The position numbers and the translations under genes were made by a program. DNA of 64,000 nt from a virus. Below the pieces are notes generated by a model that saw nothing but the letters and a program-made list of their open reading frames with translations, had not been told where the DNA came from and did not search any database. Each line of letters starts with the position of its first letter. Positions within the stretch are counted from its first letter, which is position 1. The stretch covers positions 1 to 64,000 of the IMG/VR virus record IMGVR_UViG_3300030333_007705; one strand, given 5' to 3'. Shown piece after piece: positions 1-17,034 of the stretch.

Positions 1-79
1 GGTCTTTAGGCTGAATCCCTTTCTTTGCCGGGTCATCGGGCTCCTCAGTAATGAAGCTGTTCCATGTTTTTTTATCCAT
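1..79 (-). CDS. Partial gene with capsid-targeting-like N-terminus
   Basis: Only the first 26 codons are in the window; the rest lies beyond position 1. The ATG at 79 opens MDKKTWNSFITE followed by an acidic and proline-rich stretch. The aromatic/basic start ending in I-T-E resembles the N-terminal tags on the next four genes and would fit a T4-type (L/I)xE prohead protease site. The start overlaps the last 8 nt of the upstream gene. Function unknown. Confidence 0.6.
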   Translation of the reverse strand, partial: MDKKTWNSFITEEPDDPAKKGIQPKD

Positions 80-2111
80 ATTGTTTACCAGTCAAACAAG
101 AAATTATTACTTTTCGGTAGTGAGGACTGATGTCAGACATGTTTTTTACCTGCTCTAAATTGAAAAATCCGAATTCACTGTGTTCGTCACTTAGACTAAC
201 ATCGTCTCTTGCAAACTCTCCTTCAAAAAATTCTTTATTTCCATGAGGCATGTGTAGGTCTACTACTCTGTCAACTATGAGGCCGGTCTCTTCATAAACT
301 TCTCTTTGCAGACCATTTCGCAGAAGAAGAACCACGCCATTCCTATGCAATACAGCCTTGACTGATTTTGTGCCATCTTCGCCGCCTGTAGTAAAATTTT
401 TAAAATTTTGTATTATAGTCGCCATGTTATTCCCGCGTGGCCCGTGAACTTCAAAGCCTTCTGATAGCCTTCTTTTTTTGCTTTCCGTAAAATATTTACT
501 AGTGGCTGTCGCCTCAGGATCAAATCTACCAGTAATGTAATCAACTGCAGCTTCTGTTGAAAAATTTGGATCGAGATAGAGCATAATAGAATCATATAAG
601 TTGTTAAACTTGCCTGTTGGCATCTGGATTATCTCGTTCATAACATACCAAGTATTAAGTTCCGAAAACTTTGAGTCTGCATATGCTTTTGGTGGTTTTG
701 GTCTTGGCTCGCCTGCAGGCTTCTTTGTTCTCGCCTGTTTAGGTTTGGCAACCGGCGCTTCGGGTGTTGGGTAATATTTGTAAGCTGAGCCCTTCTTCCC
801 GCGAGACGTAAGCGATCTTACACCAGGAACCGTGACTTTTCCTTTTTCGTTCTTGACACCAAGAAGAAACTTTCCTGCTTCTTCAAAGCCTTTTCCATCA
901 ATTTCGTCAAACAGGGTACCAAGCCAGCTTTTCTCTTCGAATTCTCTTTCAATGTCCGCAAGGTCTTGATTAATTTGTTTGATATTTCTTATAGAATCTT
1001 TAATCTGGTTGATGGCGAATTCAGTTGTAACGCCGAGACCCGGGTCGCCGGTTTGTCTAACTTGCATTGAAACCCACACGATTGCTTGTAACTCGTGTGG
1101 CAATAAGCCAAGCTTTTTTGCCTCTTGGGCTACAAGCCTAGCCATGTAACGATACGAAACAACATTCGACATTAATTTGCCTTTCAGGGCTTCCCATTCT
1201 TTTGACGTTGATGCTTTCTTTATCATCGGATAAAAGGCATCAATCATCCAAGTGTCAATTGTCGAGTTCCACATGTACATGTCGTTATAGGACATATCGC
1301 CGGTTTCTTTATCTCTTTCGCCAGCCAAATTTGGAGCAACTAAGTTTAATGCAAAGTTTGGAACTTTGCTCGCTTTAGTGAATCCTCTGGCCTCGCCGGG
1401 CTCACGCTTCTCCGCCCCAGGGAAAGTCTCAAGGTATTGCTTGAGCATATCGGGGTTTTCTGATGCGTCTTTTTGCACAGCTTTGAACATGAAGGCTGCT
1501 TCGGCTAGGTTGAGTGCGAACTTGGCCCTCGGTGAATATGTGGCTATTAATAAGCCTAACAAAGCAGAATCTCGATCATCGTTTGTTTCTTGGTCGAGAA
1601 GATCTCTAATGTTGTGATACCAGTCCCTGGCCTGGGTATATAATTCGCCTGTCTTTTTTGTTTCTTGAATCATCATCTGGAAGTCGTCGAGAACTTCTTG
1701 AGGCACTTTTAAAACATAGCCAGCTTTTTCAAAATCTTGAGCGGACATCTGGCCAATACCTTTCTCTGCGCCTTTAACAGCCCGAGGCCCAAATTTTTCT
1801 ATATCTCCACCTGGGCCATAGTATTTCTGTCTGAGCGCTTCTAAATCGTCGTCTTGCTCAGCAACCATCTTCATCGGGGTTGCGTCTTTCTGCGACGCGT
1901 CAAGTTTCACTTTTTCAAAATTGTTCATGCTCAGTAGTGGCGTCGGCCCTTCTGCTCCAAGAACTTTTTTAGCAGCGTTGACGATTTTAGCGATAGAGCG
2001 ATTTAAGGTTTTTACTTCAGCATCGCTAAAAGTAAAACTGCGCATAGCTTGAGCATCAGCTTTTCTTTCATCGTCTACAAATCTGTTCCATCTTTCAAAT
2101 ATTTTTTTCAT
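72..2111 (-). CDS. Tagged virion-cargo candidate with incomplete Nudix domain
   Basis: The product is 679 residues, taking the ATG at 2111, which begins the tag MKKIFERWNRFVDDE. An in-frame ATG 18 nt upstream would put residues before the tag. The middle (about 150-390) is helical and unrecognised. A Lys/Pro-rich linker near 455-490 precedes the C-terminal part. At about 600-625 the second half of a Nudix box is clear (REVYEETGL), but the preceding G-G-x-x-E-x-G-E half is absent and RNG joins directly to LQREV, so hydrolase activity is doubtful. I infer packaging in the virion from the tag. The body could be a new enzyme fold. Confidence 0.75.
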   Translation of the reverse strand: MKKIFERWNRFVDDERKADAQAMRSFTFSDAEVKTLNRSIAKIVNAAKKVLGAEGPTPLLSMNNFEKVKLDASQKDATPMKMVAEQDDDLEALRQKYYGPGGDIEKFGPRAVKGAEKGIGQMSAQDFEKAGYVLKVPQEVLDDFQMMIQETKKTGELYTQARDWYHNIRDLLDQETNDDRDSALLGLLIATYSPRAKFALNLAEAAFMFKAVQKDASENPDMLKQYLETFPGAEKREPGEARGFTKASKVPNFALNLVAPNLAGERDKETGDMSYNDMYMWNSTIDTWMIDAFYPMIKKASTSKEWEALKGKLMSNVVSYRYMARLVAQEAKKLGLLPHELQAIVWVSMQVRQTGDPGLGVTTEFAINQIKDSIRNIKQINQDLADIEREFEEKSWLGTLFDEIDGKGFEEAGKFLLGVKNEKGKVTVPGVRSLTSRGKKGSAYKYYPTPEAPVAKPKQARTKKPAGEPRPKPPKAYADSKFSELNTWYVMNEIIQMPTGKFNNLYDSIMLYLDPNFSTEAAVDYITGRFDPEATATSKYFTESKKRRLSEGFEVHGPRGNNMATIIQNFKNFTTGGEDGTKSVKAVLHRNGVVLLLRNGLQREVYEETGLIVDRVVDLHMPHGNKEFFEGEFARDDVSLSDEHSEFGFFNLEQVKNMSDISPHYRKVIISCLTGKQYG

Positions 2112-2118
2112 ACTATAA

Positions 2119-3327
2119 TTATCTGTCAAAAATGATTACTTCACCTGTTTGATAGGAAATACCAAAATTACCTAAGTGAACGTCGCGCGTTTTATTGCCA
2201 TAAATCCACTGATCTCCAACTGACTCGGCTAAATCGTACATCGCAATCAGAAAATCTTTCAGCAATTTTGCGCCTTTGCCCGATTGCAGTGCAGGAGGTA
2301 TAGGCTTCATATCAAACCACTCTTCTTTTTCTGCATGATCAGATTGCGTACCGGCCCATCCATATTTTTGCACCCAGTCGCTGTTGTTTTCTAAGCCTTT
2401 TTTAGATATCCAGTTAATAATATAATCAGCATATTCTTCAGCGCCACCCTCGACATGCACAAAAGGCTTAACATGGTGAGGTTCCAGCTCAAGATCATTT
2501 GCAATTCTTGTCATAGAGCGACCAGCGGCATCTTGCATCCCATTGAAAAGATCAGAGTCAAAAAATGCTTCAACGTCATAAGCCGCGTCTTTGTCAAAAG
2601 CATCCGGCAACCAGGATTCAAACGGAATAACCTTGCCCATTTCTGCATATCCGATATATCTTATAGGCTCTGTCATTTCCATTTCTGCATTGGGTACATA
2701 GGTTGGTATAGTGCCGTATTCATATACAGCTAGGTCATGTGATTTGGCTGAGCCTCCGGACTGCGAACTTAAAAGCTTAGAATAAACTTTTAATTCTTCT
2801 TCAAGCCCGTAAACTCCGCTTTTAAATATTTTAACTATGTGGCTGTTACTGAAGAGCGCGGCAACACCATATCCACCTTCTCCAACTACTTTTACGAATT
2901 TGTGATCTTTAAAGATTTTACTTGGCGACCCTTTTCCTTCGGTAGTGCCTTGTGTTGCTGCTTCTAAAGAATTGCAAGAAAAAGTACCTACGCTTCTCCA
3001 TTCATACCCTTTTAACCACTTTTTCAAATTTTCACAATTGTAAGCAAGATTATCTTGAGATTTTTGTGAAGATCTTTGCTTTCTTGCTTTTTCATATTCT
3101 TCCGGAGTGGGCTTCTGGTGTTGCTGGCCTTCTTCATCTGCTTTCCATTGTTTAAATTTTTCCCAATCTTTTTCAGATGTAGAGGGGTCTTGTTGCCACT
3201 TTTTAGCTTGTGCTGCTCTTCCCGGACGCGCAGTTCTCTCTTCTTGATCTTTCTTGATTGTATCAAGAATATCATCAACATAACTTTCTTTTAAATATTT
3301 ACGCCAGTTTTCAAGTAGAAGTTTCAT
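2119..3327 (-). CDS. Tagged protein-kinase-fold protein
   Basis: A 402-residue protein starting at the ATG of MKLLLENWRKYLKES, a tag ending in LKE. A charged, Gln/Lys-rich linker covers about 20-95. The kinase-like part follows: a glycine loop VGEGGYGVA near 148, IVKIFK with a candidate ATP-binding Lys, a catalytic-loop-like RDVHLGNFG near 384, and VIIFDR at the extreme C-terminus where the metal-binding Asp is expected. The protein ends right after that Asp, so there is no C-lobe beyond it, as in some atypical or aminoglycoside-kinase-like folds. Its substrate is unknown. T7 gp0.7 is a precedent for a phage kinase, but I see no specific similarity to it. Confidence 0.7.
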   Translation of the reverse strand: MKLLLENWRKYLKESYVDDILDTIKKDQEERTARPGRAAQAKKWQQDPSTSEKDWEKFKQWKADEEGQQHQKPTPEEYEKARKQRSSQKSQDNLAYNCENLKKWLKGYEWRSVGTFSCNSLEAATQGTTEGKGSPSKIFKDHKFVKVVGEGGYGVAALFSNSHIVKIFKSGVYGLEEELKVYSKLLSSQSGGSAKSHDLAVYEYGTIPTYVPNAEMEMTEPIRYIGYAEMGKVIPFESWLPDAFDKDAAYDVEAFFDSDLFNGMQDAAGRSMTRIANDLELEPHHVKPFVHVEGGAEEYADYIINWISKKGLENNSDWVQKYGWAGTQSDHAEKEEWFDMKPIPPALQSGKGAKLLKDFLIAMYDLAESVGDQWIYGNKTRDVHLGNFGISYQTGEVIIFDR

Positions 3328-3748
3328 TTTTGTTTTGCCACTCTTCGGATTTAGTATCATCTTTAATCGGCCCGCCTTTTGCCCAGGTCCGACAAGATCT
3401 TGCAGAGTGGCATTTAAAATGATGCATCCAACAATAGCCTAGTTCGCCTTCTTCATCAGAAGTTTCACCAGGCATGCAATCTTTCATTCTGGGAGAGATA
3501 TCAAAAGCAACACAGTTTCCACACAAAGACTTTCGAGCCGCTTCTTCCGTGGTGTTCCAAGCACCGGCAATGTTTTGCCAATAATCACCTGGTTCGTCAA
3601 CATTTAAAGGCCCGTATTGAATATGCTCAGCTTGAACAGCTGCATCTCTATTTTTAGTATTAAGTTCTAAGTCTTGAGTCGCAGAAGGACACATCAGCTT
3701 TTCAGCTTCGTTAACGAATCTACGAAAATTTTCAAATATTACTTTCAT
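3311..3748 (-). CDS. Tagged small Cys-rich protein
   Basis: 145 residues from the ATG at 3748, which starts MKVIFENFRRFVNEA (tag ending VNE). The C-terminal half has a regular cysteine set: CGNC, a Cys after about 11 residues, then YCWMHHFKCHSARSCRTW. The spacing suggests a metal- or Fe-S-binding knob, a module often seen in phage head-associated proteins. That comparison is from memory and is not proof. It overlaps the next gene downstream by 17 nt. Confidence 0.7.
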   Translation of the reverse strand: MKVIFENFRRFVNEAEKLMCPSATQDLELNTKNRDAAVQAEHIQYGPLNVDEPGDYWQNIAGAWNTTEEAARKSLCGNCVAFDISPRMKDCMPGETSDEEGELGYCWMHHFKCHSARSCRTWAKGGPIKDDTKSEEWQNKNETST

Positions 3749-4457
3749 CTTGTTCTGGCACCTCGGCAGCAACAGGCGAATCGTTTTCGTCTCTAACTAG
3801 TTCTTTATTCACAATATCATAGCCATCAACAACGCCAATATTCCAATAGTCAAAGCCTGGAAGCAAAGCAATTTTTTGTTCTGGAAACTCTCCATAATTT
3901 AAAAAAACAGCCGCCTGGCCGACAACTTCTGTAAATAGAGCACCCGCAGCTTCTGGCGGTATGGTGTGCAAATGAGCGTTATAAGCTTGGATTTCGCCTT
4001 TCATGTCGAACGCCGTGCCTCTGTGGCCAGCGTGCTGTATGTGAGCCATTACATCATGCACTGCTCTAAACTTTTCGTTCGTGTCAGGCTCATCCGGTCC
4101 AGCCATCTCATCCTTAACACTAAAAATTGGATGTTGTGTCCCTCCTTTAAAAACCTTGAGAACGCCAGTCTTCGCAACTTCACGCCGCAACTGCTCGTCT
4201 CCACCTGGATAAGGATCGTCATTCACAAATTCGACTCTAACTCCTTGCTTACCTCTTTGTAGTTTTTCATACCAACTATCAATAACAGGAATTAATTTTT
4301 TAAAAACCTCAGCAGCGTCGGTGTCGTAAACCGGGGCCTCGCGATAAGCGTCGGCTACTAGTTTTCCATATAGATCCCACCCGTTAGGCCCGGGCTTTAA
4401 CTTTAATCGATCTTCTGTTATTAGATATCTTCGCCAGTTTTCAAAAAGTTTTTGCAT
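3732..4457 (-). CDS. Tagged protein with FRAVHD/GHRG domain
   Basis: 241 residues. Tag MQKLFENWRRYLITED ends in ITE. The central part carries FRAVHDVMAHIQHAG, then GEIQAYNAH and LLPGFDYWN. This order is typical of a domain found inside phage structural polyproteins (FRAVHD...GH...E..A...H). The histidines and acidic residues could bind metal, but no enzyme activity is established. It sits in the tagged-gene cluster and overlaps the Cys-rich gene by 17 nt. Confidence 0.7.
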   Translation of the reverse strand: MQKLFENWRRYLITEDRLKLKPGPNGWDLYGKLVADAYREAPVYDTDAAEVFKKLIPVIDSWYEKLQRGKQGVRVEFVNDDPYPGGDEQLRREVAKTGVLKVFKGGTQHPIFSVKDEMAGPDEPDTNEKFRAVHDVMAHIQHAGHRGTAFDMKGEIQAYNAHLHTIPPEAAGALFTEVVGQAAVFLNYGEFPEQKIALLPGFDYWNIGVVDGYDIVNKELVRDENDSPVAAEVPEQDESNI

Positions 4458-4469
4458 AATAGTAAATAG

Positions 4470-5021
4470 TTATTTAGTTTGTAATACCTGATTCTTTAGT
4501 CGATCCCAGTTTGTGCGTTTGCTTTTTAAAAGTTTATCAACTTTTCCGCCATTTTTAGTATCTCTTGGGTATGATAATTTAACACCTTTAAGCTCTGGAA
4601 GCATGCCAAGTTCTCTTGCCATATCAGTTGTTAAATCTCGCCAGTATCTTTTGTATTTAACCATGGCTAATAATACTTTTTTACGAATAGGTAAATATTT
4701 TCTATCTCTTAAATGTATTATAAAAGGAATAAGATTCTCCCAATCTTCATCGTCAAAGTTTTGATAATCTAATTTAGGTAAAACTGGCAATATTTTTTTA
4801 TGTCTCGTTTTGTCACCAAATATATCGTCTTTCGGATTGCCATGTTTTTCTGCAAATTTGTCTGCTAATTCTTTAGACCAACCGCCGTGTTTTTTCATTA
4901 ACAATGCAAATTCATTTCTTAAAGCCTGGTCTCCTTTGAGAATAGCACTTAATAATTTTTTATGTTTACTGCCTTTAGACTCACACAGATAATATCGCCA
5001 GCTTTCAAATAACTTTTGCAT
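4470..5021 (-). CDS. Tagged basic protein of unknown function
   Basis: 183 residues, strongly Lys-rich. Tag MQKLFESWRYYLCES ends in LCE before a basic body. Residues 20-140 look helical with several W-x-x-L segments. No catalytic motif is seen. Basic cargo of this size resembles T4 internal proteins in general character only. Confidence 0.65.
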   Translation of the reverse strand: MQKLFESWRYYLCESKGSKHKKLLSAILKGDQALRNEFALLMKKHGGWSKELADKFAEKHGNPKDDIFGDKTRHKKILPVLPKLDYQNFDDEDWENLIPFIIHLRDRKYLPIRKKVLLAMVKYKRYWRDLTTDMARELGMLPELKGVKLSYPRDTKNGGKVDKLLKSKRTNWDRLKNQVLQTK

Positions 5022-5038
5022 GTAGTAAATAGATATTC

Positions 5039-5314
5039 TTATCTAAAAACTCTTTCTTTTGCAGTATCAAACAGTTGAGGCAAAAAGCTCTTCTTCAGCT
5101 TAAGAAGCCTTTCAAACTTTACAGCCTCTCTAGCATTTGTGTAAAGTGTCGTCGGCTTTTTGATATCGCCATCAATTAGTTGTTCGTTAAAATCATAAAA
5201 TTTTGCTTTTGGTTGTCCCGCGAATGCACTGGGGACAAACCAGGGCAGCCCAATAGAAAAGATTATACTAAACAACAAAAAAGCTATTAAAATTATTTTT
5301 CTTAAGTTTGACAT
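5039..5314 (-). CDS. Exported small protein
   Basis: 91 residues. Residues 5-32 form a classical signal peptide or single membrane segment ending SAFAG, a good signal peptidase I site. The mature part (about 58 residues) is rich in Lys, Phe and Leu with no Cys. An AGGAGGG Shine-Dalgarno precedes the start. It stands next to a lipoprotein metalloprotease, which suggests an envelope role. Function not recognised. Confidence 0.65.
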   Translation of the reverse strand: MSNLRKIILIAFLLFSIIFSIGLPWFVPSAFAGQPKAKFYDFNEQLIDGDIKKPTTLYTNAREAVKFERLLKLKKSFLPQLFDTAKERVFR

Positions 5315-5329
5315 TTTTAAACCCTCCTT

Positions 5330-5866
5330 TTAAATATCAAGTTCAGCCAACGTTCTATTCAGTTGACTAACAAACTGTGTGTGCTCTCTTGTCCAGCACA
5401 AATATAAATCACCCTCGTGATCCGGATCTCCAGACCTGCATCCATTAGCCCACAAAGCAACATGTGTTAACTCGTGAACTAAAGAAGTCGAGGCTACGCG
5501 GTCATACGAGTTTGTACGAAGCCATATATAAGTTGGACCAAGAGTCATGCCCTTGACTTGGCCAATCCTAACAAGCCGACCTTTTATATCCCGCGCCATG
5601 CCAGTGAGAATCTTATCTTTCGAAGACCACTCGATCATGATTTCGTCTATGCTATTTTTAACACGCCCATCACGATCGCCAAATCGTTTTCGCCACTGGT
5701 GATAAAAAATTGTAATCGCCTGTGAAACTCTTTTTGCGTCTGGTACGTCGTCAGAGGATTTTATTTGAAAAGAAAGTTCGGAGTGTGGCAAGCTAATCAT
5801 TTCTTGTCGCACAGTTGTCGCACAACTACACAGCAACAATATTAGTATTAATAAACCTCTAGCCAA
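5330..5866 (-). CDS. Lipoprotein zinc metalloprotease-like protein
   Basis: 178 residues starting at TTG (5866) after a GGAG Shine-Dalgarno. The N-terminus ends in a lipobox, LLLCSC, so the protein is probably lipid-anchored after Cys15. The motif HELTHVALW near residue 130 matches the HExxH zincin site. A downstream acidic/His group (GDPDHEGD) could supply a third zinc ligand. The fold resembles small secreted zincins. Likely acts in the periplasm or on the outer membrane of the host. Confidence 0.7.
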   Translation of the reverse strand: MARGLLILILLLCSCATTVRQEMISLPHSELSFQIKSSDDVPDAKRVSQAITIFYHQWRKRFGDRDGRVKNSIDEIMIEWSSKDKILTGMARDIKGRLVRIGQVKGMTLGPTYIWLRTNSYDRVASTSLVHELTHVALWANGCRSGDPDHEGDLYLCWTREHTQFVSQLNRTLAELDI

Positions 5867-5880
5867 TCACTCCGTCTCCT

Positions 5881-6087
5881 CTAGGCATCCACCTTCTTTT
5901 TGCTAACCATCAGCGCGCGAACGGCTACATCTGAACGAATGTCATCCCAGATATGTTTCCAGTTCTCGATATCTGACCTCGTCATTTCGTCCATCATCGC
6001 CCACAAGGAGTCGACTTCATCTTGCAGGTCAGCATTCTTTTTTTTAAGCAAGATAATTGTTTCTTTTAATTTTTTCACTTCAGACAT
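5881..6087 (-). CDS. Short coiled-coil protein
   Basis: 68 residues. Residues 3-35 form a heptad-like coiled coil (LKETIILLKKKNADLQDEV), followed by an acidic/aromatic segment and a basic tail. It lies between two exported-protein genes but has no signal itself. Function unknown. Confidence 0.6.
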   Translation of the reverse strand: MSEVKKLKETIILLKKKNADLQDEVDSLWAMMDEMTRSDIENWKHIWDDIRSDVAVRALMVSKKKVDA

Positions 6088-6096
6088 TTGTTTTCC

Positions 6097-8040
6097 TTAA
6101 TTTGTACTACACGCATTTTCATCAAGAATTTCCATAAGATAATTATACATTTCTGTTATGCTGGTTGAAAGTGGATACCATTTACCGCCAGAGGCTTTGG
6201 CAATCGGCTCCCACCCACCTTCGTTGTTCCACGCCTCTGCAATTCCTTGCGGGGAAAATGTGTATACTTTTAAATCTGGCGTTGAAGCCACAGCCGTTTC
6301 TAATATTTCTTGTGTGATGGTATCATTAGAGTTCCACGAACCTGGAATAGGATCTGGCAGCATATAACTTTGACCTTTTTCATCGCTAAAAACAATAATT
6401 ACTCTTTTAGCATTTGGTCTCCAATTGACAATAAAGTCTTCCAAAGGAGGTATCGATTCATCCACTGAAGTGCCGACCATGGTGGCCCACATAATGTCAC
6501 CCACACCATATGGAAGAACAGTGGCGATATTCCAAATAGATAAATAAATTGCATCATAAAGCATTTCATATTGCCCCGACATTGGAGTGCCGTTTAGGCC
6601 AGCGAATGACGCCATAAAGTCAGTAAATGATGCCAAGTTGCTTATCATTTCAAGATAATTATGATTTCCATAATATTGATCTGGAACTTTCGGCCCGATA
6701 ATCAGCCCCCACTGAAGTACTGATTCATCGCTATATTGTTGTGCAAAAGAGTTCAAAGCTGCCAAAACAGCTGAGATCTCGTTATCCATCGAGCCAGACC
6801 AATCTAAGATAAATAGAATATCAGTTTCTTGCATTTCTTCGCCAGTATCGGTTATGCCATCACAGTCATCGTCAACACCATTGCAAACTTCTTCTTGGGG
6901 CGTTATTTCACCCTCGCACATGCCACCAACAAATTCGCCGTCGGCAGTTAACCCACCCCAGGTACCTGCTTGACAAGTTACCTGCCCAGGCAAACAAATA
7001 CCCTTGTTGACAGTACCTTCGGGTCCAGTATAGCACGGCGCGTAGAGATCTTCGTCAATTAATTGATTGCAATTATCATCAAAATTATTGCATAATTCAT
7101 CTTCTAGGGCCATACCAATAAGAGGATCGCATGTTTGGTCCGGTTGAGGAAAATAGTGGCAAAAAGCAAAACACTCTGTGGTGACTATGGTAGTGCAGTC
7201 TTCGTCGACGCATTCACAAGTTTTAAACCCTTGGCCACATAGTAGAGGATCTTCCATGCATGGAAACAAAACGCCGACATCTTGTATTGTACACTCGCAG
7301 GTTAAACCTTCGTCTACTTGACCATTGCAATTGTTATCTAAACCATCACAAATTTCTGGTAACTCCGGAGGCGCAGTACAGCCGTTCCAGTTTCCGTTAT
7401 TACAAAACTCCACACCAGTACCACAAGCTGTATAACATGGCTGGTATAAATCTTCGTCTGTATCTCCGTCACAATCGTTGTCTACACCGTCGCAAATCTC
7501 TATAGGCTCAAGACCACAAGATCCGCACATATTTAGCTGACCTTCGTCGATTTCACCATCACAATCATCATCGAGCCCATTGCACATTTCTTCTGTGCAT
7601 TCTGTTTGACAGTCAGTATATTGAATTTGTCCCTTATTGCATACCTTGTCTTGCGTGCCTGGATATCCATCTTCTGTCACACAATCAACTTGTTCAATCA
7701 AATATTGAGTTGGGTCACACTGAAGGTATTCTTTGCACTCGCTCTCGTGCACGACTGCAGGAGGGTCGACGCAGTGATCAATGCAAATTTCTTTTTGCCA
7801 AACAGAACTCAGAGGAGGACAAAAGTACCACTGGCACTGTACACAGCTATTATTTGGAAAGGGATAAACGTCAGGATCAGGCCCAAGAACATCTTCAGCA
7901 GGAGGCTCGACACGCGTAATATCATTTACTGCTTGCGCGGTGTCAGAAGGGACTGGCAACACTGGGTCGTCCATAAATACCTCTGAGCAACCTACGCTCA
8001 AAATTAGAAGTATTGTGGACACCATTGCCAGCCTTTTCAT
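6097..8040 (-). CDS. Lipoprotein with MopE-like repeats and VWA domain
   Basis: 647 residues. The signal ends in LSVGCS, a lipobox with Cys19. The middle holds five Cys/Asp-rich repeats of the type CNGLDDDCDGEIDEG, near residues 153, 182, 231, 317 and 386, as in MopE-like metal-binding proteins of Myxococcota and relatives. From about 402 a von Willebrand A domain begins with DILFILDWSGSMD, an intact MIDAS DxSxS. The likely site is the outer surface of the host, binding Ca or other metals and a protein partner. Such a host-type protein on a phage suggests acquired surface-altering cargo and hints at the host phylum. Confidence 0.85.
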   Translation of the reverse strand: MKRLAMVSTILLILSVGCSEVFMDDPVLPVPSDTAQAVNDITRVEPPAEDVLGPDPDVYPFPNNSCVQCQWYFCPPLSSVWQKEICIDHCVDPPAVVHESECKEYLQCDPTQYLIEQVDCVTEDGYPGTQDKVCNKGQIQYTDCQTECTEEMCNGLDDDCDGEIDEGQLNMCGSCGLEPIEICDGVDNDCDGDTDEDLYQPCYTACGTGVEFCNNGNWNGCTAPPELPEICDGLDNNCNGQVDEGLTCECTIQDVGVLFPCMEDPLLCGQGFKTCECVDEDCTTIVTTECFAFCHYFPQPDQTCDPLIGMALEDELCNNFDDNCNQLIDEDLYAPCYTGPEGTVNKGICLPGQVTCQAGTWGGLTADGEFVGGMCEGEITPQEEVCNGVDDDCDGITDTGEEMQETDILFILDWSGSMDNEISAVLAALNSFAQQYSDESVLQWGLIIGPKVPDQYYGNHNYLEMISNLASFTDFMASFAGLNGTPMSGQYEMLYDAIYLSIWNIATVLPYGVGDIMWATMVGTSVDESIPPLEDFIVNWRPNAKRVIIVFSDEKGQSYMLPDPIPGSWNSNDTITQEILETAVASTPDLKVYTFSPQGIAEAWNNEGGWEPIAKASGGKWYPLSTSITEMYNYLMEILDENACSTN

Positions 8041-8050
8041 TACCTACTCC

Positions 8051-8377
8051 TTATGGACCCCATGAATTAAAAACATCCCGCATGTCGATTTCATCAGTAT
8101 CATTTGGTGAATCTGTATTTTTACTTAAATTAAATTTTGAAGCCTTTGCTTTATTGACAGAGCTTTTAGTATCTTCATATAATTTTTTCATGGCTTTGCC
8201 GGCCTCATAAGACGATAAATAATTTTCATACAGCGGCGATTGATCTTTGTGCCAAAAGTTTGGATGCATGCTCCACTTTTGAGTCCACAAGTTCAGCTTG
8301 ACTGCTCCTAATAGCTTTTCGTCCAAATAGATATCTGTATGCGTTTTATCAATTTCTCTAAAACGGGTAGTGGTCAT
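8051..8377 (-). CDS. Hypothetical protein
   Basis: 108 residues, hydrophilic. The N-terminal half is beta-like (DIYLDEKLLGAVKLNLW, then WSMHPNFW). The C-terminal half is charged. It overlaps the tiny membrane gene upstream by 4 nt (ATGA), so the two are probably cotranslated. No family recognised. Confidence 0.6.
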   Translation of the reverse strand: MTTTRFREIDKTHTDIYLDEKLLGAVKLNLWTQKWSMHPNFWHKDQSPLYENYLSSYEAGKAMKKLYEDTKSSVNKAKASKFNLSKNTDSPNDTDEIDMRDVFNSWGP

Positions 8378-8463
8378 TGGCTTACCCTGCCTATAAACAT
8401 GCCAATAACAATGCCAAGAAAAAAAACAGCTATTATTGAAGATGTGATAATTGCGCTTTCCAT
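8374..8463 (-). CDS. 29-residue single-span membrane peptide
   Basis: ATG at 8463, TGA at 8374-8376. Residues 4-25 form one hydrophobic helix (IITSSIIAVFFLGIVIGMFI) with a short Arg-containing tail. Coupled to the next gene by an ATGA overlap. Possibly a small membrane regulator or lysis accessory; the sequence does not decide. Confidence 0.5.
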   Translation of the reverse strand: MESAIITSSIIAVFFLGIVIGMFIGRVSQ

Positions 8464-8525
8464 ATTAATAACTAGTGTTTATATTACTTGTGGAGAACAA
8501 AAATGTTCAAGGAGCACGCAGCCAC

Positions 8526-8849
8526 ATGATCAATGAAAGATACAAAAATAAGACTTATACAAAAACAGATCCAGAGTTTAATAACGTATTGGACCTCCTT
8601 GCCAAGGAATATTTTAACATTTCTGGCGACGAAGACGCAGAAGTTATCATTAACTGGAACAAGCGAGAAGTAAAAGAAGATGGGGTGGTCTCTTTTTATG
8701 CAACAAACCATGCTTTAAGAAACGCTATTATTCGCTGCCGTAAGGGAATTCAAGCAGTCGATCTCCTGGGCAAGGGCGCAGGAGCAACCTTATATTTTGA
8801 AAAAGGGTTTGTGCGGCCGATGCACACAGTCCTAAAAATTAGGAAATAA
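8526..8849 (+). CDS. Hypothetical protein on the plus strand
   Basis: 107 residues from the ATG at 8526, chosen for the AAGGAG about 11 nt upstream. An upstream ATG at 8475 is open but lacks a good ribosome site. The product is soluble and mixed alpha/beta with no recognised motif. It is one of only three plus-strand genes. It converges on the next minus-strand gene and overlaps its 3' end by 11 nt. Confidence 0.55.
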   Translation: MINERYKNKTYTKTDPEFNNVLDLLAKEYFNISGDEDAEVIINWNKREVKEDGVVSFYATNHALRNAIIRCRKGIQAVDLLGKGAGATLYFEKGFVRPMHTVLKIRK

Positions 8850-9762
8850 GATCTTTTGGATTTTTCCAAACTAAAATATTTGTTCGCTTCCTAGACTCCC
8901 AGACTCGTGATTCGCTATCATCGCTAGTCCAATCTTCCTCTTTCTCTTCTTCGTCGTCGTCTTCAGGCCAGCCAGAGCCGCTCCACCAGTCGTCTAATGC
9001 GCCCGACGCGGCTAGCGGTGATACGTCTCCTGCTGCGCCGGCAGGCAGTGGCGGAGGAGATCCACCCGATGGCTCATCTGAAACGATATCTTCAGGGTCC
9101 ACGTCTAACGGCTCGTCGTCTTCTTTTTCGTCTTCTTTTTCAGAATCTTCTGGTTTTGATTTATCCGAAGACTCGCCACCGCCCGAGCCAATCATCTTTT
9201 TTAATTGCTGGAGTTGGTTTTCTAAATTATCGCGAAACTTTTGAAAGCTTTCGATTAGCTCATCAAGTATTGCAATAATGTTTCCAACATCTCCAGAGCC
9301 AGCGGCATCTAGTTTGTCGTCGATATCCTTACCGGACTTGTCATCTTTAGAGTCTTCACCTTCCTCTGACTCTTCTTTCTCTTCTTTTATGGCATCCACC
9401 TCTTCAGAGGATTTCTTGCCTTTTAGTTTGTCTCTAGCATCTGTAAGCTGTTCAATAAGCTTGTCAAACATCTCAATCCATCCCTGGATTTGCTGAGGCC
9501 CTTTATCTTGGCTTAATCCGGACAACATCTGAGCAAGGCTATCTCCATAAGCACCGTCTGCCAAACCGCGGATAAACCCCTGCCCAGCATCCCCGGATAA
9601 GAATTTTGCTACTTTTTGACGCCACTTTGGAAGAGAAGAATAGCCCGGCATTTGCCTCGTCTTTATGAGGCTTTCGCCCTCTGCTTCACGCTCTGGGTTA
9701 CCTGCAGCTTCTCTGAGCCGCTTCCTGATCATATTCTTTAATTCTGATTCAGTGATTTTCAT
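8839..9762 (-). CDS. Tagged acidic protein, class II tag
   Basis: 307 residues. The tag differs from the FENWRR type: MKITESELKNMIRKRLREA, ending LRE. A structured part covers 30-110. Two coiled-coil-like segments (92-115 and about 165-190) are separated by long Glu/Asp/Ser/Lys tracts, and a Gly/Pro-rich stretch follows near 230. The C-terminus is basic again. Composition resembles a scaffold or internal virion protein. Confidence 0.65.
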   Translation of the reverse strand: MKITESELKNMIRKRLREAAGNPEREAEGESLIKTRQMPGYSSLPKWRQKVAKFLSGDAGQGFIRGLADGAYGDSLAQMLSGLSQDKGPQQIQGWIEMFDKLIEQLTDARDKLKGKKSSEEVDAIKEEKEESEEGEDSKDDKSGKDIDDKLDAAGSGDVGNIIAILDELIESFQKFRDNLENQLQQLKKMIGSGGGESSDKSKPEDSEKEDEKEDDEPLDVDPEDIVSDEPSGGSPPPLPAGAAGDVSPLAASGALDDWWSGSGWPEDDDEEEKEEDWTSDDSESRVWESRKRTNILVWKNPKDLIS

Positions 9763-9943
9763 GTTCTTCCTTCTCCAGGAGTTGTTCAGCTTCTTCAGCC
9801 TCTTCGTCTTCTTTTTTCCAGATCATCTTGATAACTTCGTAAACATGCTCTTTTGGCAAAGTTTTGTAAGTTTCTCTTAAATTGCTTCTGGCTTCTTTGG
9901 ATGTGAGCTTATTCTTGGTCATCTCGACACATATTAAGCACAT
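9749..9943 (-). CDS. Small charged helical protein
   Basis: 64 residues from 9943; an in-frame ATG at 9921 gives MTKNKLTSKEARSNL, an equally plausible start. The C-terminal third is a Glu-rich helix (EDEEAEEAEQLLEKEE). It overlaps the tagged acidic gene by 14 nt. No function recognised. Confidence 0.5.
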   Translation of the reverse strand: MCLICVEMTKNKLTSKEARSNLRETYKTLPKEHVYEVIKMIWKKEDEEAEEAEQLLEKEEHENH

Positions 9944-9944
9944 C

Positions 9945-10055
9945 TTAGCATTGTCCCGAAAGCCTGGCCAAGAGCCAAATGCCGGCGACAGTTAAAAGCA
10001 AAGGCTTCCAATTTTGCATGAGCAGTAATTTCGCATTATTTAATAAGTTCTTCAT
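9945..10055 (-). CDS. 36-residue membrane peptide
   Basis: ATG at 10055 with AAGGAGAAA upstream, stop at 9945-9947. Residues 8-31 include a hydrophobic helix (WKPLLLTVAGIWLLARL). It fits exactly between its neighbours. Function unknown. Confidence 0.5.
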   Translation of the reverse strand: MKNLLNNAKLLLMQNWKPLLLTVAGIWLLARLSGQC

Positions 10056-10081
10056 GATAATTTCTCCTTGTTGTTTGTATT

Positions 10082-10519
10082 TTATGGCCTAGGCACGATT
10101 CTTAAGGTATCAACTATGTAATCAACGAGATTTTCCAGGGCGGTAACGCGCTTTTCTAGCTCGTGCGGCAGCGTTGGCATTGTACGTTGCGGTGGTCTGC
10201 GGTCATCTCCGGGTCGTTCTGGCGGAAGGGCAGGGCCCAAGGACCGCTCTTTAATGGGAAGGGGCCCCCGCAGGTATTCGGGCTCGTCGCTTTCCAACTC
10301 TTCAACCCTTTCAAAGAGTTCTACTATTGGATCCATAAACCGATTAAGTTTCGTACTCTGAGACGGCCTATTCTCAAGGCCGCCAAGGTCGATCGCCTCC
10401 GAGAGGGCGCGGACCATTTCAGCGCGCATCTGTCCCATGTGGCGCGCCTGCTTCTCATTAAGGGTTTTTTCTAATTCTTCTTTAATAAGCTTCTTTAAGC
10501 CTGATTTTGTAATTTTCAT
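10082..10519 (-). CDS. Tagged proline-rich protein, class II tag
   Basis: 145 residues. The tag MKITKSGLKKLIKEELEK continues to TLNEK, ending in LNE. After a helical segment (about 25-75) there is a Pro/Arg-rich stretch near 85-115 and a C-terminal helix. No catalytic motif. Virion location is inferred from the tag. Confidence 0.65.
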   Translation of the reverse strand: MKITKSGLKKLIKEELEKTLNEKQARHMGQMRAEMVRALSEAIDLGGLENRPSQSTKLNRFMDPIVELFERVEELESDEPEYLRGPLPIKERSLGPALPPERPGDDRRPPQRTMPTLPHELEKRVTALENLVDYIVDTLRIVPRP

Positions 10520-10531
10520 ATTGAGGCCCTC

Positions 10532-10897
10532 CTACGGCCAATCCTGAGTTTCATCTGGATTCCAAGTTCTTAAGTCCCAGTTTCTATTATGCACGTCCAC
10601 AGCCATGATCTCATTCTCTGCACCAGCCTCTACCGAAACCAGACAATACGCTTTAAGTGATTTTACCTCCTCAGGGGTTTGCGGAATATCCGTATCATGC
10701 TCGTGTGCCCAACTGAAATAAGCATTTTGTGCGTCTTCTTGTGTCCACGCGTTCCCAGCGGGAGTGTCTCGCAGCTGCCCACAATCTACAAGTGTATCAC
10801 CGCCCTGGTTGTGGTGATCCATGTCAATATTCTCGTTCAAGAAATACCTTGGATCTCTCCGCTTACCTTTATTTTTAATTGGTTTTCCGTATCTCAT
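10532..10897 (-). CDS. Hypothetical with RDPRYFLNE start region
   Basis: 121 residues. A basic N-terminus (KNKGKRRDPRYFLNEN) again ends in a ΦLNE-type site at residues 20-22, which suggests a third tag class. The body is acidic/aromatic (YFSWAHEHD, NWDLRTWNPDETQDWP). It overlaps the upstream coiled-coil gene by 1 nt. Confidence 0.6.
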   Translation of the reverse strand: MRYGKPIKNKGKRRDPRYFLNENIDMDHHNQGGDTLVDCGQLRDTPAGNAWTQEDAQNAYFSWAHEHDTDIPQTPEEVKSLKAYCLVSVEAGAENEIMAVDVHNRNWDLRTWNPDETQDWP

Positions 10898-11091
10898 TAT
10901 TTACTCCTAAAACAGCTCAAGCCCCCAGGAAACATGCCTTTCCAGGTGACTGCTCGTTCGGCTGTGTTTTTTTGTTTTTCTAAAGTAACCACCTTTTCTT
11001 CTAGCTCAGCAACTTTTGCTTCCAAAGCTCTTTTCTCTTGTTTAAGCTTTGCAATAATGTTTATTTTTTGCATGATACCGAACTGTTCCAC
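10897..11091 (-). CDS. Coiled-coil protein
   Basis: 64 residues from a GTG at 11091 with AAGGA seven bases upstream; an ATG at 11073 is the alternative. Residues 14-45 form a strong heptad coil (LKQEKRALEAKVAELEEKV). Function unknown. Confidence 0.55.
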   Translation of the reverse strand: MEQFGIMQKINIIAKLKQEKRALEAKVAELEEKVVTLEKQKNTAERAVTWKGMFPGGLSCFRSK

Positions 11092-11127
11092 AGGTGCATC
11101 CTTTTGTTGTCAGACACTAATATATAG

Positions 11128-11155
11128 TTTAATTTTAACTATAAGTTCCTATATT
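11128..11155 (+). promoter_or_regulatory. Plus-strand promoter for the YiiX-like operon
   Basis: TTTAAT, 16 bp, TATATT, with CC just before the -10, the same spacing and pre-10 bases as the minus-strand phage promoters. Transcription would start about 11162, next to the AGGAGG at 11162-11167. Confidence 0.55.
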
Positions 11156-11172
11156 GTTAACAGGAGGTTGAC

Positions 11173-11289
11173 ATGATTATCTTTACGACGGTGGTAATCG
11201 CCGGAGTGTTGCTAACAAGCCTGACGTGCAGGCTTTTGCTATCTGCACTCATTAATAATTGCATGCCCGCGCCCAAGGAGGCGAAATGA
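11173..11289 (+). CDS. 38-residue membrane peptide
   Basis: ATG at 11173 preceded by CAGGAGG. Residues 2-29 are hydrophobic (IIFTTVVIAGVLLTSL, then LLLSAL). The stop TGA overlaps the start of the next gene (AATGA), so the two are probably translationally coupled. Perhaps a membrane partner or leader of the YiiX-like protein. Confidence 0.5.
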   Translation: MIIFTTVVIAGVLLTSLTCRLLLSALINNCMPAPKEAK

Positions 11290-11924
11290 AGAGGTTGATT
11301 GTTGGAGTGACGCTCGCCACAGTCATGCTCATGACCATATGTGGCACGCGCGCAAGCGCGGAAAAAAATTTCCAAACAGGGGACATTATCTTTCAAACCA
11401 CACGAGGCAGATTGGCCACAGTGGTAGCGACAGCGACCCTTTCGAAGTATACACACGTTGGCATGGTTATCGTCAAGAAAGGAAAACCTTACGTAATCGA
11501 AGCCAGGAATCGGGGTGTAAAGATGCGACCATTGCACAAATTCACCGAAGCGGGCTTCGGAAAAAATTTTTCTGTTTTAAGGATCAACTATGGCCTTAGT
11601 GAAGAAGAAAAACGTAAGCTAGCCAATGAAGCCCGTAGCCATTTAGGCAAAAAATATGATAGCAAGTTTCGTTGGGACGATAAAAAGCTTTACTGTTCAG
11701 AGTTGGTGTACAAATCTTACATGAATGCTTTGGGCCTTGAATTGAATACAACCGAGAAATTAGGTGATTTCTATTCTTCTTGGAACCCTATTATCAATGC
11801 TTATGTCGAGAGAAAATATGGAAACAGCAAAAAGCTTCCCTTTGAAGAAGAGGCGATCACTCCCATACGTCTATACAAAAGCGATAAGCTTAAGCTAATT
11901 CACAGCACTTATCTAGTGCCTTAG
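11286..11924 (+). CDS. Exported YiiX/NlpC-P60-like cysteine hydrolase
   Basis: 212 residues from the ATG at 11286 (GGAGGCGAA upstream). Residues 1-25 are a signal peptide ending near RASAE. Permuted papain-like features follow: GDIIFQ near 31, KYTHVGMVI near 53 with the His, and LYCSELV near 138 with the candidate catalytic Cys and Glu. This order matches YiiX/YebB-type members of the NlpC/P60 superfamily, which cleave peptide or acyl bonds. Likely periplasmic, acting on peptidoglycan or lipid-linked substrates. Its gene is convergent with a tagged papain-like gene. Confidence 0.75.
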   Translation: MKRLIVGVTLATVMLMTICGTRASAEKNFQTGDIIFQTTRGRLATVVATATLSKYTHVGMVIVKKGKPYVIEARNRGVKMRPLHKFTEAGFGKNFSVLRINYGLSEEEKRKLANEARSHLGKKYDSKFRWDDKKLYCSELVYKSYMNALGLELNTTEKLGDFYSSWNPIINAYVERKYGNSKKLPFEEEAITPIRLYKSDKLKLIHSTYLVP

Positions 11925-12742
11925 ACGTTTACGATTTCCTCGTCTTTGTCATCGATAGCATAGTCGATAATAGAATCAGGTTTGGCAAGGAATGCCTTTC
12001 TCATGGAAAGGCCGCTTCCTTCGCCACCTCCGGCACTCAAAACCTCGGCCACAAACGTCGCGCAATTTTCCCCGCCTGCGGCGGGGCCTAAAAAGTTGTA
12101 CGGTTTCATTCGGCCCGTTTTTGAGTTAGCATAGGCGAAAGCGCGTTCGGCGTTAATTCCTCGAACCAAAGCAACCTTCATTTGGCTTTGCCCTGAGTAG
12201 TTTTTAAACTTTCTGTATGCTTTGACGTTAGCTAGGTACTCATCCTGGTTTTTTAAGCTACCATCATAATCCCATATAGCCCTGCCTTTCATTCTCCAAG
12301 GCCCGCGCACGAGGCCGCCACCCTCTTTTAGGTTCGCTTTCGTCTCAGGTTCCTTACCTGTGATCCCTACAGACTGGGCCCCATACAGATACTTGCCAAA
12401 ATCGAAGTAACGTCCTACACCTTTCTTGTCAATTATTACAATCCCAGCGTGCCCCAGGGGGAAGCCCAGTTTATCTGGGATGATCCCTTTCTCACGCGCT
12501 TTGTTGTATATATCCGACTTGGTTGTTTTTGGCATGTTGAACTCGTATTCTGGCCAGGCAATGGCTAGCGCGTTTACCCTCCGCATGTTTGGGTTCTCGA
12601 TTGCCGCTTCCCTAGCTCTCGCCGCATCGGCTTCTGGGTCCTCATCTTTAAACCCAAACGGATCTAGCCACGATCGTTCGCTTAATACGGCCTTGGTCTC
12701 TTCTAATATGATCTGTCTTAGCAAATCTTGACTAATCTTCAT
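11921..12742 (-). CDS. Tagged papain-like hydrolase candidate
   Basis: 273 residues from the ATG at 12742, giving the class II tag MKISQDLLRQIILEETKAV then LSERS (ends LSE). In the body, GHAGIVIID near 100 and GENCATFVAEVL near 232 have the His and Cys contexts of papain-like/NlpC-P60-like peptidases, in permuted order (His before Cys). I infer a cell-wall or protein-cleaving enzyme carried in the particle. No exact family is recognised. Confidence 0.65.
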   Translation of the reverse strand: MKISQDLLRQIILEETKAVLSERSWLDPFGFKDEDPEADAARAREAAIENPNMRRVNALAIAWPEYEFNMPKTTKSDIYNKAREKGIIPDKLGFPLGHAGIVIIDKKGVGRYFDFGKYLYGAQSVGITGKEPETKANLKEGGGLVRGPWRMKGRAIWDYDGSLKNQDEYLANVKAYRKFKNYSGQSQMKVALVRGINAERAFAYANSKTGRMKPYNFLGPAAGGENCATFVAEVLSAGGGEGSGLSMRKAFLAKPDSIIDYAIDDKDEEIVNV

Positions 12743-13837: not shown

Positions 13838-14091
13838 TAGTTTAGTTCCCTCGGCTTCTCTGCGAGGTGCAGGTGTCGTCCTTGGTCATCCTCGACCCAG
13901 ACAGGCCAGCCGGTGGCGAGCCATTGTCGTGCAGTGATCTCGACTTGCTGAAGGTTGGGCGTATCATAGCGCTGGACCCCTCCAGAACCGTCAGGAACGC
14001 ACAGATACCACGTTGTCGCGACTTCCTCTGCCTTTTGGGGTGCAGGGCCTAGAAGGGCGCTTACGAGGGCGCTGAGAGTGTCTCTACTCAT
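13837..14091 (-). CDS. Hypothetical protein
   Basis: 84 residues: an N-terminal helix, then a compact Trp-containing domain (TTWYLCVPDGSG, TARQWLATGWPVWVEDDQG). It overlaps the VGD-like gene upstream by 8 nt. No known family. Confidence 0.55.
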   Translation of the reverse strand: MSRDTLSALVSALLGPAPQKAEEVATTWYLCVPDGSGGVQRYDTPNLQQVEITARQWLATGWPVWVEDDQGRHLHLAEKPRELN

Positions 14092-14347
14092 TTTCTTTTG
14101 TCTCCTCGACCATGAAGTTCAGGTCGTCTGTCTGGCGTATCCATCGCCAGTGTTTGTCAGGGTCGCTCAGGGCTCTGAGCAGTGCAATCGGTGTGCCCTC
14201 TGGGTGGACACTGTGGCGTCTCGCTACCTTTAGCTCTGTGACCCTCCACAGGGCTCCTTGTTCCCTCACACGGTTCTTCCCGTGCTTGGTCTTGCCTGTG
14301 AGGGTCAGGATGTCTCCTACGTCCATTTTCTTTGTACCCTCGGCCAT
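14084..14347 (-). CDS. VGD-family SH3/KOW-like small protein
   Basis: 87 residues from the ATG at 14347, which directly follows the sigma-factor stop; an ATG at 14326 starts exactly at MDVGDILTLTGK and has GAGG upstream. Shows the family pattern: VGD-I-L start, basic segment, then LWRVTEL and WRWIRQ. Operon position suggests coexpression with the sigma factor. Confidence 0.55.
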   Translation of the reverse strand: MAEGTKKMDVGDILTLTGKTKHGKNRVREQGALWRVTELKVARRHSVHPEGTPIALLRALSDPDKHWRWIRQTDDLNFMVEETKENE

Positions 14348-14348
14348 C

Positions 14349-15182
14349 TTAGAAGGAGGCGCGGAGCATGGCCTTGACGCCATCGGCTCCGAACGAGCGG
14401 GTGAAGTGGTCAGCGAGCTTCACGCGAAGCTGCTTCTCAATCTGACCAACGCGCTGCTTGGTCACGCCAAAGGACTTGGCGCAGCGCTGCTCCTCACCGA
14501 GCAGGTCGTTGATGATGCGACCGCGCAGGATGGCTGCGTGGTTGGGCTTGAGGCCCTCGACAAAGGACGCCAGAGCGCGGGCGATAGCCTCGCTGTTCTG
14601 GGTGCGCTCCATGCGCGTATCCTGGCGAAGCTGCCCGTCAGGGATAATGGTTGCGACGGTGCCACCGTCAGCGGTGAGCGGCTTGTCGAGCGACACTCCA
14701 CGGGAAGCCATCGAGGCGAGACACTCGCGCACGTCATCGGCGTCGAGGTCGAGGTGGGCAGCAATCTGCTCTGGGGTCGCGTCAGCGCCGATGGTCTTCT
14801 GAGCCTTCTGGAGCGAGGACCAGAGCTTCTTGGCAGTGCGGGAGCCGCAGTGCAGCGTACCGGCGTTGGCCTGGACGTGCTCCTGGCACTTGGCAGTCAT
14901 CCACATGCGAGCGTAGGTCGTGAAGGACGCCTGCTTGGTGGCGTCGAACTTGCCAGCGGCGATGATGATGCCCTCGGTCGCACAGGCGAGGAGGTCGTTG
15001 AAGTCAACGCCACGTCGGACGTGCTTCTTGGCGACCTTGTGGGCGAGGCGAATGTTGGCACCGATGAGGCGCTCAAGGGACTTCTCGTCGCCCGTGGACT
15101 GGTAGTCGGCGCAGAGGTCAATCTGCTCGGACTTGCTGAGGATGATGCAGGTGGCGGCGATGGTCGTAAGAAGGTTCGTCAT
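14349..15182 (-). CDS. RNA polymerase sigma-70 family factor
   Basis: 277 residues. Region 2 is clear: GANIRLAHKVAKKHVRRGVD then FNDLLACATEGIIIAAGKFD (2.1-2.2) and ASFTTYARMWMTAKCQEHVQ (2.3-2.4). Region 3-like PEQIAAHLDLDADDVRECL is at about 143-162, and region 4.2 helix-turn-helix SFGVTKQRVGQIEKQLRVKL at about 237-258. Region 1.1 is absent, so it resembles a group 3/4-size alternative factor with intact regions 2-4. It would replace host sigma on core polymerase. The repeated island promoter is its most obvious candidate target (inference). Confidence 0.9.
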   Translation of the reverse strand: MTNLLTTIAATCIILSKSEQIDLCADYQSTGDEKSLERLIGANIRLAHKVAKKHVRRGVDFNDLLACATEGIIIAAGKFDATKQASFTTYARMWMTAKCQEHVQANAGTLHCGSRTAKKLWSSLQKAQKTIGADATPEQIAAHLDLDADDVRECLASMASRGVSLDKPLTADGGTVATIIPDGQLRQDTRMERTQNSEAIARALASFVEGLKPNHAAILRGRIINDLLGEEQRCAKSFGVTKQRVGQIEKQLRVKLADHFTRSFGADGVKAMLRASF

Positions 15183-15212
15183 GTTGGGTTCTCCAGGGTT
15201 GTTGACGTTGTG

Positions 15213-15240
15213 CCTATATATATTGCAGGTTCCGTGCCAA
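15213..15240 (-). promoter_or_regulatory. Promoter of the sigma-factor gene
   Basis: TTGGCA, 16 bp, TATAGG about 30 bp before the ATG. The -35 is nearer the host sigma-70 consensus than the TTTACY of the other island promoters, which would suit early expression by host polymerase. Confidence 0.45.
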
Positions 15241-15270
15241 CTTTGGCTTTTCAGCCATTTTTTTTACTTA

Positions 15271-15290
15271 TTGAATGATTCCAGGGGGTT
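15271..15290. repeat. AACCCT/AGGGTT-type motif, copy 2
   Basis: TTGAATGATTCCAGGGGGTT, about 30 bp upstream of the sigma-gene -35. A degenerate copy. Confidence 0.4.
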
Positions 15291-15330
15291 GCAGTCTTCT
15301 CTCTCTCGCCACTCTGGCCAGGAGAGCCTC

Positions 15331-15396
15331 AAGTGCGTACTTGGTTACGCACTTTTGTGTATCTCGTTACACACTAAGTGCGTACTTTTTGACACA
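15331..15396. repeat. GTGCGTAC iteron-like cluster
   Basis: AAGTGCGTAC occurs twice in direct orientation (15331 and 15376), TTACGCACTT once inverted (15345), and TGTGTA...TACACA lies between. The cluster covers the 3' end of the 15374 gene and sits upstream of the sigma gene. It may be an operator or initiator-binding site. Confidence 0.5.
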
Positions 15397-15595
15397 CCTG
15401 TGCTCGTCGGGCCTTCCGGGCCTTCCGGGCGCAACCCTTGCAGGTGGCGAGGACAGGAGCCCAGTAGCCCACCGCAGACTGTGCCCAATGGACGTTCAGC
15501 TTCCGTCGCTGGCCAGGGGTCACGCAGTAGTCGTCAGCGTCACAGACGCCAATCTCGACGCGCTCAGAGGGATGGATGGGTGCTTGGTTCGTCAT
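15374..15595 (-). CDS. Hypothetical small protein with CxxC
   Basis: 73 residues from the ATG at 15595, chosen for GGAGACGAC upstream. Contains VCDADDYCV and a basic tail with CKGCARKARKARR; four cysteines could bind zinc. The stop falls within the iteron-like repeats. It has its own phage promoter. Confidence 0.55.
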   Translation of the reverse strand: MTNQAPIHPSERVEIGVCDADDYCVTPGQRRKLNVHWAQSAVGYWAPVLATCKGCARKARKARRAQVCQKVRT

Positions 15596-15623
15596 GTCGT
15601 CTCCGTGTCTCTCGTACACCTAT

Positions 15624-15651
15624 AAAGTAAGAACCAGAATCGGCCAGACAA
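15624..15651 (-). promoter_or_regulatory. Island promoter, 15595 gene
   Basis: TTGTCT, 16 bp, TACTTT with GGTTCT before the -10. It lies about 29 bp before the ATG. Confidence 0.55.
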
Positions 15652-15656
15652 GGGGG

Positions 15657-16194: not shown

Positions 16195-16222
16195 GTCGTC
16201 TCCTTGTCTCTTCGACACCTAT

Positions 16223-16250
16223 ACAGTAGGCACGGATTCTCGTGGGTAAA
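16223..16250 (-). promoter_or_regulatory. Island promoter, 16194 gene
   Basis: TTTACC, 16 bp, TACTGT, with CCGTGCC before the -10. Upstream (16251-16294) the block AGCAAAAAACT occurs twice, possible A-tract UP elements. Confidence 0.7.
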
Positions 16251-16292
16251 GGGGCGCGAGCAAAAAACTATGCACGCACGAGCAAAAAACTT

Positions 16293-17008: not shown

Positions 17009-17034
17009 GTCCACTCCTTTGTTGGGACACTTGT

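Follow-up and report, generated by a model that had tools for sequence, protein, structure and literature searches.

Two families of short N-terminal tags in a marine virus and its relatives resemble the capsid-targeting sequence of phage T4

In phage T4, a short N-terminal capsid-targeting sequence (CTS) is enough to direct foreign proteins to the inside of the head and is cleaved off by gp21; the T4 proteins Alt and IPI have their activity in the host (PMC9958956, PMC9026906, PMC3012670). The scaffold is shredded by gp21 (PMC9958956). In T4 IPIII, targeting depends on residues 4 and 7 and processing on residues 8 and 10, and the CTS has already been suggested to be a general packaging route for varied proteins in T4-like phages (PMC9026906). 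We read the N-terminus of IPIII from the T4 record as MKTYQEFIAE. The ejection proteins of phiKZ and SPN3US also have propeptides, which are cleaved after xE by a prohead protease that belongs to the gp21 superfamily, and SPN3US gp53 and gp54 have an identical 15-residue N-terminus in common (PMC5694885). Injected proteins are known for few model phages only. Here we describe two families of N-terminal tags, class I and class II, that are found in the marine virus record IMGVR_UViG_3300030333_007705 and in other viral contigs. The record is linear and 74,015 bp long, and the stretch that we analysed, bases 1-64,000, is called the window.

The class I consensus has 14 residues, MKxLFENWRxxLxE, and the class II consensus has 14-22 residues, MKITxSxLKxIIKEEL..LxE. 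Like the CTSs of IPII, IPIII and Alt, both are short putative propeptides at the N-terminus of unrelated bodies, with a gp21-type site at the end. The targeting and processing residues have the same spacing (PMC9026906), and the tag genomes encode a gp23-type capsid protein and an S77 protease. Unlike the T4 CTS, the tags come from the genes of uncultured phages, differ in sequence from MKTYQEFIAE and MELITELFDE, are longer, belong to two separate families, and precede hundreds of body families instead of a handful. The common start of SPN3US gp53 and gp54 is comparable, but the propeptides of phiKZ and SPN3US end in A/S-x-E and many exceed 100 residues, whereas the tags end in [L/I]xE. Neither tag string was found in the open PMC literature. 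Judged from the genes, what is new is the two undescribed families, their scale, their interchangeability and a signature of protease avoidance. We think it highly probable that both tags act in the manner of the T4 CTS, as capsid-targeting propeptides. On nine genes of the window, they most likely serve as labels by which proteins are loaded into the virus head and later injected into the host.

Tag profiles were made exclusively from other viral contigs, with 136 tags of class I and 133 of class II, and were scanned over all 2217 possible starts of the 74,015 bp record (open reading frames of at least 40 residues), with 200 residue-permuted nulls. The class I profile picked out the starts at 3327 (score 37.9), 32585 (29.6), 4457 (28.5), 3748 (20.6), 5021 (16.3) and 2111 (7.2); the null maximum was 5.9 and the next-best start scored -4.7. 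The class II profile picked out 10519 (37.1), 9762 (19.8) and 12742 (14.0), with a null maximum of 9.5 and a next-best start at -1.2. These nine starts are real and beyond chance. All of the listed tagged genes are on the - strand. The original prediction, made from the letters of the window, had named the same nine starts and a further class I start at 79, where the gene is truncated and the tag looser. Its figure of about 10 tagged proteins is close to ours (nine and the truncated gene), and, as it had stated, the bodies are unrelated: no two tagged bodies of the window share a family. It had also read RDPRYFLNE at 10897 and PLSE at 43780 as tags. These lie outside the top-scoring starts of both classes and are isolated LxE strings. 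The cargo had been described as enzymes, which applies to some of the proteins only (NUDIX-like at 2111, TseH-like hydrolase at 12742).

Conservation of the tags ends at a putative cleavage site. Class I tags carry 2.56 bits of information at E14 and 0.51 at residue 15, and in class II the value drops from 1.4 to 0.4 past residue 16. The motif hydrophobic-x-E (hxE) is present at residues 12-17 in 93-94% of tags, compared with 5-12% elsewhere in the same proteins. E14 was left free in both search patterns. Among 122 class I tags that lie outside the search pattern, W8 is found in 113, Y/F11 in 112 and E14 in 98, and residue 12 is mostly L, I or V. When the sequences are aligned on the Glu, residues 4, 7, 8 and 10 of T4 IPIII correspond to residues 8, 11, 12 and 14 of both tags. 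Both have hydrophobic residues 6 and 3 positions before the putative scissile Glu, as at IPIII residues 4 and 7, and the complete spacing hydrophobic-x-x-hydrophobic-[LIVM]-x-E occurs in 79% and 92% of tags, compared with 5.3% of other N-termini. Additionally, homologous bodies sit behind either tag (L followed by a number denotes a fetched locus of a viral contig, and G a tag-bearing genome). The class I-tagged bodies of L111 and L088 align with the class II-tagged body of L269 at 47.5%, over a stretch of 80 residues that starts at the tag border. In addition, L073 (class I) and L258 (class II) have a common domain (68%). By these alignments, the two tags are interchangeable.

The tags are widespread in viral contigs. 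The class I DNA pattern occurs in at least 119 stretches, and the class II DNA pattern in many stretches among the matches listed. Class I codons in permuted order gave zero matches in viral contigs, and in 257 Gb of bacterial and archaeal genomes the class I pattern gave three matches, none convincing, in open reading frames of 2, 11 and 30 residues. The listed class I matches lie inside a long open frame in 3 of 151 cases, compared with 29 of 48 for the control pattern MKxLFENV. Class I matches mark gene beginnings. Class II tags were also found in 16 of 36 records searched; the reversed pattern was found in 0. After profile extension, the fetched loci contain at least 578 distinct tagged bodies from at least 368 unrelated families, and the tagged genes are clustered and in tandem, with as many as 10 in one fetched locus. 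Most tagged bodies have no known family. Other class I bodies have NUDIX, protein kinase, HD, exonuclease, HAD/nucleotidase, PNK-phosphatase or amidase domains. Of the other proteins that were suspected to be ADP-ribosyltransferases, most lacked a supported Pfam match.

By their gene content, the tag-bearing records are T4-like. An S77 protease gene (PF03420) was found in 36 of 57 tag records searched, including all 31 that have a gp23-type capsid gene. The gp23 gene is absent from all 21 tag records without S77. The tail sheath gene is also absent from the seven of these that were tested for it, and thus the records without S77 look like fragments. The S78 protease family was likewise absent from the records without S77. 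The gene order that prevails in 14 fetched head regions runs from the protease through the small core protein, the structural proteins and the scaffold to the capsid protein and then the neck protein. Of the class II genes, 10 of 133 share a strand with the protease gene and are no more than 300 bp from it, frequently at a distance of 2-7 bp; position alone would predict about one (our own estimate, with about 200 genes per genome). LxE sites that match the tags are found in the head proteins. In the N-terminus of the protease there is an LLRE or LLQE whose Glu is residue 7 or 8, and that of T4 gp21 carries LIE-9 (PMC9026906). The propeptide of the capsid protein of tag-bearing relatives contains a conserved LLE/NQA..LL[RK]E, with predicted sites at LLE/N and LLRE/A (a stroke marks the cut), and the start of mature T4 gp23* aligns near LLE50 of this protein. 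A conserved small protein adjoins the protease (MKKxELKxxLKPLIKECIxE..LxEEGxLS; L182 5191-5589, L181 2114-2551, equivalents in L180-L193). It resembles class II and may be the core protein that the tag mimics.

If cargo shares the prohead with a protease that cuts at [L/I]xE, this motif should be avoided in the cargo. We compared 288 residue pairs at spacing 2 between tagged bodies and the other genes of the same loci, the controls being neighbouring open reading frames of mixed function. In tagged bodies, IxE and LxE are the fourth and fifth most depleted of the 288 pairs and have the largest counts within the lowest group, and LxD and LxQ are raised. There was no effect at spacings 1 and 4 and a weaker effect at spacing 3. 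When each family contributes a single value and the controls come from the same strand, [LI]xE has a ratio of 0.80 (95% confidence interval 0.73-0.88). The control motifs gave 1.10 for [LI]xD and 1.04 for the reversed E-x-[LI], and [LI]xK was not depleted. The scaffold, in contrast to the tagged bodies, is enriched 1.94-fold in [LI]xE. The six class I bodies of the window contain 7 internal [LI]xE, compared with about 16 expected.

Based on these results, we propose a model in which the class I (14-residue) or class II (14- to 22-residue) peptide would bind to the prohead scaffold or core, and proteins with unrelated bodies would thereby be co-assembled into the prohead. The S77 (gp21-type) protease would cut after [L/I]xE as soon as the shell is complete, and the tag would be lost. 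The cargo would remain with the packaged DNA and be injected later alongside it. We favour this T4-type model because of the modular reuse of the tags, their [L/I]xE end, the co-occurrence of S77 and gp23, the adjacency to the protease gene, the matching LxE sites and the internal avoidance. The kinship of the window phage with the tag-bearing genome G003 and the homology of the 4457 body to a phage protein annotated as structural (both below) also speak for it. The capsid targeting put forward in the original prediction is thus supported by several independent lines of sequence-level evidence, from which we infer scaffold binding, packaging, cleavage and injection. On a broader scale, uncultured marine T4-like and jumbo phages probably run a general delivery system in which two interchangeable tags load hundreds of protein families for injection.

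An alternative model gives the two classes different fates. Class II would mark building blocks of the prohead core, like T4 gp67 and gp68, that are consumed in maturation, and class I alone would mark injected cargo that survives. The shorter bodies of class II (median 108 residues compared with 195), the genes that often adjoin the protease gene, and the class II-like start of the small protein beside the protease (MKKxELKxxLKPLIKECIxE) would fit with this. However, class II tags are also found on TseH-like and other non-core bodies, and a core-only role does not account for the homologous bodies behind either tag. Class II bodies also avoid [LI]xE more than class I bodies do (ratios of 0.74 and 0.88), which is the opposite of the scaffold. 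Thus, class II bodies look built to survive, and we regard their consumption as unlikely.

We give slightly less weight still to the idea that the tags address another site in the infected cell, such as a membrane, a replication compartment or a host complex, and that the S77 link is due to shared ancestry only. That the tags occur together with S77 does not by itself tell function from lineage, and by hydrophobic moment the class I consensus is predicted to be an amphipathic helix (P=0.04; this is unsupported for class II). Such a destination would leave unexplained the sharp [L/I]xE end, the LxE sites in the capsid protein and protease, and the avoidance in the bodies, which is specific to [L/I]xE. 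As the tagged genes are clustered and in tandem, the shared starts might also be a feature of the DNA, a recombination cassette or translation-start element copied before many genes. This is very improbable: at the DNA level, 138 of 141 tags are different, and even adjacent tagged genes of one genome show synonymous differences, so that selection acts on the peptide, and conservation tracks residues and ends at E14. Because of this synonymous variation, we rejected a DNA-cassette origin of the tags.

Several observations weigh against the T4-type model that we favour. The tags were expected to end in (L/I/V)xE, and most do, but two starts of the window lack a canonical hxE at residues 12-14: 2111 has VDD, and 9762 has IRK with LRE at 16-18. 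The avoidance of [LI]xE is moderate in size, and [LI]xxE is also slightly depleted in tagged bodies. In size-matched fragments, tag records showed no clear excess of S77 over control records with the MKxLFENV pattern. This comparison discriminates poorly because many records are fragments, and we relied on the records that contain a capsid gene instead. When the bare tags were compared with cultured phages by tblastn, there was no convincing match and no cultured member. Last, the original prediction called for a gp21-like protease elsewhere in the genome, and no S77 gene was found in the 74,015 bp record, which ends before the head genes, or in contig L123.

The record encodes several T4-type functions (UvsX-like recombinase, DnaB-like helicase, tail tube and baseplate hub) and terminates within the tail sheath gene. 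L123, which is from the same sample and identical at the tail-tube gene, adds about 4.8 kb, through the sheath to a neck protein. The latter is 66% identical to the neck protein of the tag-bearing genome G003, whose gene comes directly after the capsid gene (order from locus L183). By neck-protein identity, the window phage is a relative of G003. Among 79 relatives fetched with the neck protein, 62 have a gp23-type capsid gene. Thus, the capsid, scaffold and protease genes of the window phage should sit just past the available sequence, with its own S77 protease just beyond the end of the record, and the protease would be unseen because the record stops short of the head genes.

If the T4-type model is correct, the list of proteins that a phage injects could be read from its sequence. 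For uncultured marine phages, injected proteins could then be read from metagenomes, with at least 368 candidate cargo families that include NUDIX, kinase, HD, HAD, nucleotidase, exonuclease and amidase domains. The model would also add to the packaging tags available for study and offer a clear way to test how a T4-type core recruits cargo.

Class I-tagged homologues were found elsewhere for four of the class I bodies of the window (2111, 3327, 3748 and 4457). The 679-residue protein encoded at 72-2111 (-) has the tag MKKIFERWNRFVDD (2070-2111), with an Asp at the expected scissile position, and its body contains DUF7178 and a NUDIX-like C-terminus. In T4 IPIII, an Asp at this position leaves the tag in place on the packaged protein (PMC9026906), and the 2111 protein would by analogy enter the head with its tag uncut. 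At 2119-3327 (-), the tag MKLLLENWRKYLKE (3286-3327) starts a protein of 402 residues with tagged homologues in L008 and L117; it is possibly kinase-like, on the basis of its G-x-G and DVHLGNFG...FDR motifs only. The 145-residue protein at 3311-3748 (-) has the tag MKVIFENFRRFVNE (3707-3748), with V at the hydrophobic position of the ending, and class I-tagged homologues in L054, L094 and L118; its homologues are annotated as high potential iron-sulfur protein. The tag MQKLFENWRRYLITE (4413-4457) begins a protein of 241 residues (phrog_3170; 3732-4457, -) that has a class I-tagged homologue in L060 and whose body is homologous to Rhodococcus phage E3 gp205, annotated 'structural protein'. Two proteins are without a known family: one of 183 residues at 4470-5021 (-), with the tag MQKLFESWRYYLCE (4980-5021), and one of 190 residues at 32013-32585 (-), with the tag MKYLFENWRSFLLTE (32541-32585) and a syntenic tagged relative in L398. 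AlphaFold models of 2119-3327 and 32013-32585 were unusable, with a mean predicted local distance difference test (pLDDT) of 34 and 36. The gene start at 1-79 (-), which is cut by the record end, has the N-terminus MDKKTWNSFITE/E. This loose class I-like tag ends in W-x-x-F-I-x-E at the same final spacing, and its front differs from the class I consensus.

The class II tag MKITESELKNMIRKRLRE (9709-9762), which has no Glu at residue 14, begins an acidic protein of 307 residues (8839-9762, -). The tag MKITKSGLKKLIKEELEKTLNE (10454-10519), with putative sites at IKE/E and LNE/K, is on a protein of 145 residues without a known family (10082-10519, -). The tag MKISQDLLRQIILEETKAVLSE (12677-12742), with putative sites at ILE/E and LSE/R, is on a protein of 273 residues (11921-12742, -) that has a TseH-like hydrolase domain (Pfam PF25218, E 1e-14). 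Convergent with this last gene is a predicted exported NlpC/P60-like hydrolase at 11259-11924 (+), by our reading of its sequence.

The guanine plus cytosine content is 0.56-0.59 at window positions 14000-20000, compared with 0.40-0.47 in the first 14 kb, and a sigma-factor-like open reading frame (14349-15182) lies inside the high region. This region could be a foreign segment or an assembly join, and with the step at about 14-20 kb the left end of the record might have been attached during assembly. Class I tags are present on both sides of it. At 6097-8040 (-) there is a predicted lipoprotein of 647 residues that is unusual for a phage, with MopE-type metal-binding repeats (PF11617) and possibly a von Willebrand-like domain. 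The region 38801-49897 (-) encodes a GroEL-type chaperonin, a ClpP-like protease and a bacterial-type DNA polymerase III alpha subunit. Finally, 20825-30936 (-) holds a row of small open reading frames of about 60-90 residues, many with an M(K/Q)VGDLV-like start, which looks like a tandem expanded family.

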